From IMG/VR virus record IMGVR_UViG_3300037070_002005, positions 1 to 29,198 of that record: DNA of 29,198 bases, one strand, 5' to 3'. The translations under genes were made by a program, and so were the position numbers. This DNA is from a virus. Below the pieces are notes generated by a model. The model was not told where the DNA came from, did no database searches, and saw nothing but the letters and a program-made list of their open reading frames with translations. Positions 12,889 to 24,049 of the stretch are shown here, one piece after another. Positions within the stretch are counted from its first letter, which is position 1, and the number at the start of each line of letters is the position of its first letter.

Positions 12889-13449
12889 TTATTGCATTAT
12901 TTGTTTAATATCTCGAACTACTTCCCTCTGAACAGCTTTATTCAGTACTGGACTATCATTTTCTTTGGTTGGCATAAACTGGCGTTTTGGTATTTTCATT
13001 TTACGCTGGTGTGATTTAACCTGACCACTTCCAGACTTGAAAGTCACTGTCTGCATTCGCTCCTTGCCTGATTTGGTAAACTTTCCGGTACCGGTTTTCT
13101 TTTTGCCGTATTTGTTACGGGTATGCGCTTTTACTGTTACTGTTCCCTCAAAACCTTCGTTATGAGCTTTCGCATACGGCATATTGTTTTTTAAAGTCGT
13201 TTGCCCTGGCTGTGTGGTGTAATAATTGGCAGCGCGCAAAGCTCCTTTATCAACCAAAGTCGAGCCTCTTTTTTTGTTGCTTTTTTTCCATCTGTCAAAG
13301 CTTTGCCCCTGAAAACCTCCCGCCCTGAAATTACCATTCACAAAGCGCAAAGCAATGTTTCCCGCTACTGTAGGAAAGCGATTGCTGGCATAGTTTTGTA
13401 TTTCCTTTGCCTTTAATTCTAACTTTTTGGTGTATTCCTCTGGGGTCAT
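12889..13449 (-). CDS. Phage virion morphogenesis protein (Mu gpG / HK97 gp10-like)
   Basis: 186 residues. Family landmarks are the TLVDKGALRAANYY segment (about 64-77) and MPYAKAHNEGF (90-100), typical of the gpG/'virion morphogenesis' group, which acts in joining head and tail. It is strongly basic in the centre (KYGKKKTGTGKFTKSGKER). Its start overlaps the gpF stop (ATGA), indicating coupling. Length is close to the usual 150-190. Confidence 0.82.
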   Translation of the reverse strand: MTPEEYTKKLELKAKEIQNYASNRFPTVAGNIALRFVNGNFRAGGFQGQSFDRWKKSNKKRGSTLVDKGALRAANYYTTQPGQTTLKNNMPYAKAHNEGFEGTVTVKAHTRNKYGKKKTGTGKFTKSGKERMQTVTFKSGSGQVKSHQRKMKIPKRQFMPTKENDSPVLNKAVQREVVRDIKQIMQ

Positions 13450-14234
13450 TTTTCTTTAAAGTAAGGATGTGTTTTATTAAATATCACACCTGTTAAAGCA
13501 GCGTTATTATCGAAAATTGTATTCTTAACCAAAGGATCAACCATTTTGTTTGCCCATTCACTATTGTAAATGTCATTCAGTTTTTTGGCTATTCCTGGTA
13601 TAATGGTACAACGACAGCCCCAAGCCAATGGCGTATATAATCGTTTCCAGATTGGATCACTTTTAAGAGCTGTAAACTTGTCAAAAATTCGGTGTTCAGG
13701 ACGAACAGCACTATCACCAACTGTAGAAAACTGTAAATATTCAGAGTCTAAAGTTTCCCATTTGTGAGCCATAATTGCCGACTGTGTTACAAACTGATGT
13801 TCTGCAACCAGATAATTTTTATTGAAAGCTTCGCCAATATCGGCAACTATTTTTTTAACGGAATCAAAGCTTTGCATTTGCCCCTTGCTGTTAAACATTG
13901 CATCCTTGAATAGCTTGAATTGCGTTAAGGTTTTGGCATAGCTAAATTGCTCAATATTTTGAGTGAATGTTTTTTGCAAGGCATTACGGCTGTCATTATC
14001 ATCAAATGAAGTACCGCCCAATCCATTGTTGAGAGCTTTGATTAATTGCCCGGCTGTTTTGTTATAAACAGCATCGGTGTCTAAATCTTTGCCCTCTAAA
14101 AGTTGCTTGGCGATATCGGTGTAAATATCATCCCAGTTATTGTCTGCGAGATCATGTAATACTACTTCACCACAACAGGAACAGCGATCACTATATAAAT
14201 CGTTCAGTTGCCCAACTAGTGTTGGGCTTGGTCG
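13446..14234 (-). CDS. Head morphogenesis protein (Mu gp30/SPP1 gp7-like), likely made by -1 frameshift from portal
   Basis: The frame encodes about 262 residues if entered by -1 slippage at the portal 3' end. It has a cysteine cluster (DRCSCCG), a helical region, and C-terminal family motifs VGDSAVRPEHRIFD and PLAWGCRCTIIPG typical of SPP1 gp7/Mu F minor head proteins. The only ordinary start codon is TTG at 14021, which would remove about 70 residues, including the cysteine cluster and a family-like N-terminal helix region. No ATG, GTG or TTG occurs in the frame from its upstream stop inside the portal gene to 14021. A CTG at 14207 is the only other marginal choice. Its product would work with the portal in the procapsid. 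Confidence 0.8.
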   Translation of the reverse strand, partial: RPSPTLVGQLNDLYSDRCSCCGEVVLHDLADNNWDDIYTDIAKQLLEGKDLDTDAVYNKTAGQLIKALNNGLGGTSFDDNDSRNALQKTFTQNIEQFSYAKTLTQFKLFKDAMFNSKGQMQSFDSVKKIVADIGEAFNKNYLVAEHQFVTQSAIMAHKWETLDSEYLQFSTVGDSAVRPEHRIFDKFTALKSDPIWKRLYTPLAWGCRCTIIPGIAKKLNDIYNSEWANKMVDPLVKNTIFDNNAALTGVIFNKTHPYFKEK

Positions 14235-14240
14235 AAAAAA
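14210..14240 (-). promoter_or_regulatory. Candidate programmed -1 ribosomal frameshift signal
   Basis: On the minus strand the portal frame ends GAT TTT TTC GAC CAA. T TTT TTC (14240-14234) is a canonical X XXY YYZ slippery heptamer. A 6-base spacer follows, then GCCCAAC-ACTA-GTTGGGC (14227-14210), a perfect 7-bp hairpin containing the portal UAG. A second heptamer, A AAA AAT, lies five codons upstream in the portal frame (TTA AAA AAT). Slippage by -1 at either joins the portal to the gpF frame. Confidence 0.7.
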
Positions 14241-15544
14241 TCGGCTAAATTTTTTAAAAACAAATCCATAAGGTTTTGTTTTTTGGTTTCGGTCAGTTGT
14301 CCTTTTTTGGACTGTTGTCCTGGTACTTTCTTTGTTGTTGGTTCTGGCTCCGGTTGCACCTTGTCGGCTTCCAGCTTAGCTTCCATTCTTGCCTTTAACT
14401 CATCGTAGTTATCAGGTTTTGGAATTCTGTATGTTTCATACCAATAATCATCACCAATTGGCACTTTAGTACTAACAATCATATCGATTTCAATACGCAG
14501 TTTTAACTTAGCTAAATTTAGATCAAGCTCAAACTCAAACTTACCATCAACATCATAGCCATAAGATTTTAATATTTCTTTGAACTTCTTACTATTCAAT
14601 AAGTTTTCAACAAATATTAAATCGGAAACGGTCAATTCGTCCTGCTGTTCGCCGTGTTCTTTTGATTGTGCGTAACCGCTCGATTTGCTGGACGTTGTTG
14701 TTTCGGTATTTCCTAAAATAGCGATTGCCATTTCGTCATTACAAGCACCTATCAAACCAAGCTGGAGCTTGCCATCTGCATTGGATGCTTTGCCGTCTTT
14801 CATTTCGAATTCGGCTTGTTTTGGTATCATTATGGCCAAAGCGGAACCGCTCTCAGTCATTACCGTTTTAAGTTCCTGTTTGGTTTTGGTGTCATAGGCA
14901 TCATACTTCATTATACGGACAGGTTGCCCGAATATTTCCACATATTGTGCATAATCGCCAAAGGTTCCACGTTTGTAAATTCCATACATAGAACAGGCTA
15001 AAAGCAATCCTAAATCTTTAGGTTTACCAATAACCCAAACAAACGGCATTTCTTCATAGGCATAGCCGTTTTCTTCTGAAACTCCGTATTGTGATTTGGT
15101 AATCACTCCTTTTTCAGGCTTAATATGTTTTCTTTCAATTTCTTTAAAAGTCAGCTCATCACTACCAATAACAAACTCAACACCAGAAACACCCCATATT
15201 TTGGATTCCATCAATAACGTAATCAAATCACGTCCTTTTTCACTTTTGAGTAAATCGGTTAAAGTGTCGTCTTGTTTGCCATCTTTTTTAAGGAATTTTA
15301 ATTTTTTATTCAATACTGAATCAATCCTTTTTTGAATGATACCACGCAAATAACCATCCATAGACAGGATGTCGTGGTACAAATCATAAAGCTGTACACG
15401 ATTAGGAAAATGAATACTTTCGGCAAGTGTAACACCACTTTTTAAGCTTCCAATATCCTTACTGCTCCTGTCTGGAGAAACAAGGGTTAAATCGTGTATA
15501 ATATACGGTTCGGTTGCTTCGGGTTTAATTTTTTTAACTGCCAT
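14216..15544 (-). CDS. Portal protein (DUF935, Mu gp29-like)
   Basis: 442 residues. It is the dodecameric portal through which DNA enters and leaves the head. Recognised by the DUF935/Mu gp29 pattern: N-terminal LYDLYHDILSMDGYLRGIIQ, core with FGDYAQYVEIFGQPVRIMKY, and a helical crown region with SGYAQSKEHGEQQDELT. The C-terminus is a charged linker (PEPEPTTKK) ending in NLADFFDQAQH. The last codons carry the slippery sequence described separately, and the length fits the family without the extension. It lies between gp36-like and gpF-like genes, the expected order. Confidence 0.9.
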   Translation of the reverse strand: MAVKKIKPEATEPYIIHDLTLVSPDRSSKDIGSLKSGVTLAESIHFPNRVQLYDLYHDILSMDGYLRGIIQKRIDSVLNKKLKFLKKDGKQDDTLTDLLKSEKGRDLITLLMESKIWGVSGVEFVIGSDELTFKEIERKHIKPEKGVITKSQYGVSEENGYAYEEMPFVWVIGKPKDLGLLLACSMYGIYKRGTFGDYAQYVEIFGQPVRIMKYDAYDTKTKQELKTVMTESGSALAIMIPKQAEFEMKDGKASNADGKLQLGLIGACNDEMAIAILGNTETTTSSKSSGYAQSKEHGEQQDELTVSDLIFVENLLNSKKFKEILKSYGYDVDGKFEFELDLNLAKLKLRIEIDMIVSTKVPIGDDYWYETYRIPKPDNYDELKARMEAKLEADKVQPEPEPTTKKVPGQQSKKGQLTETKKQNLMDLFLKNLADFFDQAQH

Positions 15545-23478: not shown

Positions 23479-23883
23479 TTGAAAACAAAAGAAACAAACC
23501 CTAGTGCAGTAAAATCAGCTTTCGCAAGCCGTAAAGCTAAAGAAGTCGAAAAGCTAAAAGAAAATGACTTGACTCCATATATTAACAGATTTGGTCAAGC
23601 CAAACTGGATGAATGGAAGAAAGAAGCTGGCGAACGTAAATTAATCTATTTGAAGCACGACGAAAGTCTAGCTGTTTTACGCCCACCCACTGCTGATGAT
23701 TTAGGCGATTACATGATACAAATTGGTACAAACGGTTTGAGTAAAGCTGTTGCCAGTGTAATGGAACAGCTTTGGCTTGATGGTGACATCGCTCTGATTG
23801 ATGATGAGGAGAAATTCATTTCTGTTTTCTTGCAGATCAACAACATCCTGGAGGGGAAAAAAGCAGAATACTTTCGCGCTTAG
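23479..23883 (+). CDS. Tail assembly chaperone, first frame (G-like), TTG start
   Basis: 134 residues from TTG at 23479; no in-frame ATG lies near. It lies between tube and tape measure, where nearly all long-tailed phages keep a frameshift chaperone pair. The charged N-terminus (KAKEVEKLKENDLTPYINRF) and ILEGKKAEYFRA end fit. The next gene is in the +1 frame, open through its 3' end, and overlaps by 86 bases. A GGGGAAAAAAG run (23853-23863) is the best slip site, so part of the product should carry the extra domain. Confidence 0.75.
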   Translation: MKTKETNPSAVKSAFASRKAKEVEKLKENDLTPYINRFGQAKLDEWKKEAGERKLIYLKHDESLAVLRPPTADDLGDYMIQIGTNGLSKAVASVMEQLWLDGDIALIDDEEKFISVFLQINNILEGKKAEYFRA

Positions 23884-24049
23884 TAATAAAGGTATAAAAG
23901 ACTGTCAAAACAAAAAAGCAAGTATTGACTACCTGATTGTTTTTGGTAGTATGAAATTTGGAGCTACGGCCTTGAAAGAATGGGGCGAAGAAATGTTCTT
24001 TTATCGTACTGGAATTGCACTTGAATTAGCCAAAAAAGAAGAAACCTAG
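23861..24049 (+). CDS. Tail assembly chaperone, frameshifted extension (T-like)
   Basis: This frame is open from before 23798 and would be entered by +1 or -2 slippage on the A run at 23857-23862, adding about 61-62 residues (from KQNTFALSNKGIKDC on) to the upstream chaperone for a total near 190. The segment IDYLIVFGSMKFGATALKEW looks like real coding sequence, while residues before the A run in this frame do not. Phage Mu is known to use a -2 shift here. The extension would bind the tape measure protein. Start by its own ATG at 23798 is less likely. Confidence 0.65.
   Translation, partial: KQNTFALSNKGIKDCQNKKASIDYLIVFGSMKFGATALKEWGEEMFFYRTGIALELAKKEET

Follow-up and report, generated by a model that had tools for sequence, protein, structure and literature searches.

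A conserved signal for probable –1 frameshifting at the portal/gpF junction of Mu-like phages

How is the minor head protein gpF made in a phage whose gpF frame has no evident start codon? The question is raised by the window, a virus record of 29 kb (29,198 nucleotides in full) from a Mu-like phage, as judged from profile matches to an rve-domain transposase, large terminase, portal, Mu-F and tail sheath. The portal gene (14216–15544, minus strand; 442 aa) is of the Mu gp29-like Portal_Mu family, matching the whole of PF06074 (model positions 1–336; 205.8 bits, E 1.5e-60) above the curated cut-off as well as the portal family phrog_113; it also matches phrog_35074, a family of portal-plus-MuF length. 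Its stop is TAG (14216–14218, minus strand); relatives use TAG, TGA or TAA. The gpF/MuF coding sequence (13446–14240, minus strand) scores 33.4 bits against Phage_Mu_F (PF04233, E 8.5e-8; curated cut-off 29.6) and lies exactly –1 to the portal, in a frame open from 14375 to 13446 and hence from inside the portal gene. The portion upstream of the junction (14241–14375, minus strand) is open by chance, being 135 nt long here and 0–3 nt in several relatives. As the initial annotation had noted, with coordinates identical on recheck, the first ATG, GTG or TTG in the frame is a TTG at 14019–14021 (minus strand). That codon lies within the predicted fold: in an AlphaFold model of gpF (pLDDT 85.7), helices at residues 37–48 and 56–74 both precede it, so a start there would be expected to truncate the protein. 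Fold comparison matched the model to predicted phage and viral head-morphogenesis proteins, with no PDB match below E 0.001.

The end of the portal gene carries the elements of a –1 frameshift site. A slippery heptamer of X XXY YYZ form, T TTT TTC (14234–14240, minus strand), stands in the portal phase GA/T TTT TTC, as it does in relatives, and a 6-nt spacer, GACCAA (14228–14233), separates it from a stimulatory-type hairpin around the portal stop (14210–14227; GCCCAAC at 14227–14221, loop ACTA at 14220–14217, GTTGGGC at 14216–14210). The stem-loop is thus within the usual distance of about 5–9 nt on the 3′ side, and the –1 frame opens into conserved coding sequence without a start of its own. 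The hairpin alone folds at –11.1 kcal/mol and the 52-nt region at –14.1 kcal/mol (z –4.6 versus shuffles); the junction has no match to a known RNA family in Rfam. The initial annotation had described this heptamer, spacer and 7-bp hairpin enclosing the UAG, correctly base for base, and its fusion of ~699 residues by a shift of exactly –1 is recovered on recomputation: 437 portal residues and the 262 gained after the slip give a predicted 699-residue trans-frame product beside the 442-aa portal. The predicted tryptic junction peptide of the window's group is NLADFFRPSPTLVGQLNDLYSDR. A further heptamer that it had pointed out, A AAA AAT, is indeed in phase 15 nt upstream, but it is not conserved, since a heptamer occurs there in just 5 of 35 close relatives, and most likely arose by chance, the DNA being AT-rich. 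A reading of the stem-loop as a transcription terminator was rejected, because the T run of the coding strand comes before the hairpin, which is the wrong order.

Relatives of the portal were drawn from viral contigs, bacterial genomes and named phages, and further ones from an even sample of genomes from the phylum and class of a Flavobacterium. Profiles built for this analysis identified 109 loci (103 non-redundant) with both portal and gpF. Among the 103, gpF is in the –1 frame in 75, part of one fused ORF in 15, and separate from the portal in some other arrangement in 13. Near the portal stop, 69 of the 75 –1-frame pairs have an in-phase X XXY YYZ heptamer, which in 55, including the hankyphage (L054), is T TTT TTC; the six heptamer-less –1 loci (L096, L097, L108, L131, L135 and L160) all have an ATG no more than about 30 nt from the stop. 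At each of the 55 T TTT TTC loci the T run is exactly six long and ends in C, the next base is G, and a stem of at least 5 bp begins exactly 6 nt past the heptamer, with many distinct stems represented. The position of the portal stop relative to the start of the stem varies from –3 to +33 nt, and since the spacer is constant while the stop moves, the spacing is tied to the heptamer and not to the stop. Compensatory changes are evident within the stem, where pair 5 is A–T in 17 loci, G–C in 19, C–G in 17 and T–A in 2. For 30 distinct close relatives, with 13 both-side changes, pairing and covariation scored above all 500 shuffles (0/500 as high).

Constraint on the heptamer is also visible at the level of codons. 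Of 160 conserved, degenerate portal columns in 34 close relatives, only five retain a single codon throughout, namely GAT, TTT, TTC, the GCC of the stem and one Lys elsewhere; GAT TTT TTC is invariant in 34/34. Conserved gpF-frame codons begin at the heptamer, and from the slip onward the frame reads FFRP[SR]PT[LIV][VI]GQLN.LY, where most changes fall at third codon positions. No gpF start codon, whether canonical or near-cognate, is conserved at any position across the 34 relatives, the highest value being 44% near-cognate. In nine loci (L011, L012, L074, L086, L090, L094, L109, L119 and L154) a stop closes the –1 frame 0–3 nt before the heptamer, and gpF must therefore be entered at or after the slippery site. 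Heptamer, spacer, hairpin and absent start codon are all kept among relatives, and this conservation of signal and phase supports the programmed –1 fusion of portal to gpF that the initial annotation had proposed. A CxxC-rich stretch after the junction, LYSDRCSCCGE (14160–14195, minus strand), is present in most close relatives and absent from distant ones (alignment A3).

The signal is more than chance, as both in-phase TTTTTTC and the stem at 6 nt are rare away from the junction. In a chance control, just 3 of the 1558 other 75-nt windows taken from portals contained in-phase TTTTTTC, and TTTTTTC with a stem at exactly 6 nt, present at 55/55 junctions, was found at 16/441 sites elsewhere in the same loci. 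Four of those 16 are themselves further portal/gpF junctions (L024, L053, L153 and L081). The last of these, in a Bergeyella MAG (L081:4273-4310), has T TTT TTC with a GCCCTA hairpin, but its portal and gpF frames look broken in several places and it is probably a decaying prophage. IMG/VR was also scanned for TTTTTTCN6GCCCCN{3,10}GGGGC without reference to proteins, and at least 120 stretches matched. Among the 120 matches listed, 104 have a portal upstream or a MuF downstream and 94 have both; the heptamer is in the portal slip phase in 93 of these 94 listed two-gene matches (78 with gpF in the –1 frame and 15 with one shared frame).

A subset of relatives has the frames inverted. In L024, L053 (a Porphyromonas phage), L153 and 15 of the matches listed in the motif scan, portal and gpF already form one zero-frame ORF, yet the signal is kept. 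A –1 shift in these loci would end the protein 15–31 residues later and so truncate it, a dnaX-type arrangement (zero frame long, –1 frame short) that is present in these lineages and not in the window. Because the shift can here yield only a portal without gpF, the retention of heptamer and hairpin although gpF is in frame suggests that both products are needed, and the inverted relatives are the best indirect support for such a requirement. Arrangements interchange on the portal tree, and one well-supported, mostly Sphingobacteriaceae clade mixes them, with gpF in the –1 frame in L090, fused with the signal in L024, and fused without it in L087, L088, L091 and L093. In-frame fusions without a recognisable signal occur in four Sphingobacteriaceae lineages and in L150, L156 and L157; the existence of such fully fused lineages indicates that a need for both products is not universal.

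Other junctions depart from the T TTT TTC pattern. Different heptamers occupy the same position in some lineages, namely G GGA AAG (L116, L136, L148 and L164), A AAA AAG (L162) and A AAT TTT (L119), and runs of A9–A10 end the portal, with gpF in the –1 frame, in L120, L124 and L137–L140. A hairpin is not evident at most of the G GGA AAG and A-run sites. Runs of T9–T10 precede gpF in frame (L069, L070), in +1 (L077) or in –1 (L089), and these long A and T runs may act by transcriptional slippage, in the A9–A10 lineages possibly to the same end. Ordinary separate genes are found in several Portal_Mu lineages, including Winoviridae lotta8-1, FPSV-S1 and Mu itself, in which portal and F are separate and F has an annotated ribosome-binding site. 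Hankyphage p00 has an ATG overlapping its portal stop, at which gpF could also begin.

These patterns bear on several possible explanations of the junction. Slippage of RNA polymerase on the T run, by which a share of mRNAs with one U more or fewer would encode the fusion, could likewise be assisted by a hairpin and may well apply to the lineages with A9–A10 or T9–T10 runs. However, runs that slip efficiently during transcription are about 8–9 or more in length, and the run of exactly six followed by C in 55/55 T6C loci is shorter than such a homopolymer. Exact codon phase, the 6-nt spacer, and the G GGA AAG and A AAT TTT heptamers elsewhere fit slippage by the ribosome, and we regard the transcriptional route as very unlikely. 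Production of a separate gpF, through termination–reinitiation or a non-AUG start just past the portal stop, appears to be highly improbable: the phase of the heptamer and its 6-nt spacing would be purposeless, and neither a canonical nor a near-cognate codon is conserved. Moreover, heptamer-less loci possess a proper ATG and nearly all heptamer loci lack one, and initiation at TTG 14021 would cost the predicted fold two helices. These points stand against the overlap of portal stop and gpF frame, the hankyphage ATG that spans the stop, and the fact that bacteria do use non-AUG initiation.

A single fused gene, as in Porphyromonas phages, might instead have been broken here by one base through mutation or sequencing error. 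In-frame fusions are indeed known (L024, L053, L087, L088, L091 and L093) and homopolymers are prone to error, but the same –1 layout recurs, with differing stops and stems, across dozens of genomes and contigs of independent origin, which excludes a sequencing error and leaves this explanation scarcely credible. Programmed –1 ribosomal frameshifting, giving the 442-aa portal and a 699-residue fusion, is very probably what operates at the portal/gpF junction, and gpF has no other evident route of synthesis. That the shift occurs on the ribosome we infer from the patterns of conservation described above.

A plausible sequence of events can be proposed. The hairpin 6 nt downstream would hold portal-translating ribosomes on T TTT TTC; the majority would continue to the portal stop and release the 442-aa protein, while a minority would slip back one base and read on through gpF to give the 699-residue portal–gpF fusion. 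The fusion would then occupy a minority of the positions in the portal ring, so that a small number of MuF domains would be tethered to the portal within the head, and its covalent linkage would do what SPP1 achieves by gp6–gp7 binding. Some relatives (L003, L014, L016 and L054) have LPD3, PBECR2 nuclease-like or papain-fold Gln_amidase domains after MuF, and where such C-terminal effector-like domains are present the same slip would set the number of effector copies loaded. The window's gpF ends in ..HPYFKEK and has no toxin domain C-terminal to MuF of the kind that characterizes MuF polymorphic toxins.

By analogy with SPP1, the likeliest purpose of the shift is control of the copy number of gpF, and of any cargo, in the portal ring, and it is plausible that the ratio of fusion to portal is thereby set in a 12-mer. 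We lean, with some reservation, towards a broader reading in which Bacteroidota Mu-like phages build a mixed portal ring by recoding, with an old need for both forms and a signal that has outlasted heptamer turnover (T6C, G3A3G, A-runs and A3T4) and flips of frame between 'shift extends' and 'shift truncates'. Recoding would then fix how many subunits bear MuF, in many relatives together with an effector-like domain, inside the head. Alternatively, a genuine frameshift might merely couple low gpF expression to that of the portal, the ratio of fused to unfused protein having no structural role. Fully fused, signal-less lineages, which live without a separate portal, are consistent with mere coupling, but it does not sit easily with the slippery site and hairpin retained in inverted lineages, where the shift could yield only a portal without gpF, and we consider it possible but rather doubtful. 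Should the mixed ring be correct, a few portal subunits in every particle would have an additional domain, in some cases weapon-bearing, and this offers testable answers to how a phage sets one or a few copies of a protein on a 12-fold ring and how MuF-borne effector domains are dosed.

A functional parallel is SPP1, in which gp7 (MuF) is present at 1–2 copies per capsid, held at the portal (PMC5576092) to which the portal protein targets it (PMC6316719). Few MuF copies would likewise reside at the portal inside the head here, although SPP1 gp6 and gp7 are products of separate genes that bind non-covalently. In-frame portal–MuF fusions, known in Microbacterium phages (PMC7302621) and seen here in a Porphyromonas phage, also place both proteins in one polypeptide, but every subunit would be fused unless recoded, and the Porphyromonas phage fusion retains the slippery site and hairpin. 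The combination of heptamer, short spacer and hairpin is shared with E. coli dnaX (tau/gamma) and retroviral gag-pol. The window resembles gag-pol, in which the shift extends the protein, and inverted relatives resemble dnaX, in which it truncates; unlike either, one homologous phage junction has both arrangements with the same signal. In the virions of Lactobacillus phage A2, T3/T7 (gp10) and Listeria phage PSA (reviewed in PMC5009743), recoding likewise makes a minority of the copies of a structural protein longer, but there it is the major capsid or tail protein that is extended, whereas here an entire second gene product joins the portal.

While –1 frameshifting itself is well known, the phage examples that we found concern tail chaperones or major capsid or tail proteins, and its use at the portal/gpF junction appears to be new. 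Consistent with the impression of the initial annotation, no portal/MuF frameshift was found in recoding surveys (PMC5009743, PMC3711429, PMC4066793, PMC10885494), in papers on hankyphages (PMC12135933, PMC6199706) and the Porphyromonas phage (PMC10367356), or in Jamet 2017 (PMC5576092), nor was recoding at this junction found in the wider literature searched, coverage of which largely excluded subscription journals, bioRxiv and supplements. Frameshift recoding is known for only a few phage structural genes, to which the portal gene would be added; the phages concerned form a very widespread group, the common Bacteroides hankyphage among them. Annotation is affected as well, with gpF truncated or mis-started in these phages such that N-terminal residues and the fusion are hidden. 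In Elizabethkingia phage TCUEAP3 (OK632026; L052:3709-3985), for example, the annotated minor head protein begins 276 nt past the portal stop and looks truncated, since its frame has no stop between there and the slippery site.

Among phage systems, the lambda G/GT tail-chaperone frameshift, together with its relatives, is a close counterpart, in that –1 heptamer recoding gives a short and an extended morphogenesis protein; the SPP1 17.5/17.5* version uses UUUUUUC, the same heptamer as here (PMC6316719). Those products differ in being tail chaperones absent from the virion, in contrast to a portal and a minor head protein. The window contains a likely Mu-type G/GT pair of its own at 23479–24049 (plus strand), where two overlapping ORFs, the second in the +1/–2 frame, lie just upstream of the tape-measure gene; GGGGAAAAAAG is found at 23853–23863 (plus strand), within their overlap.
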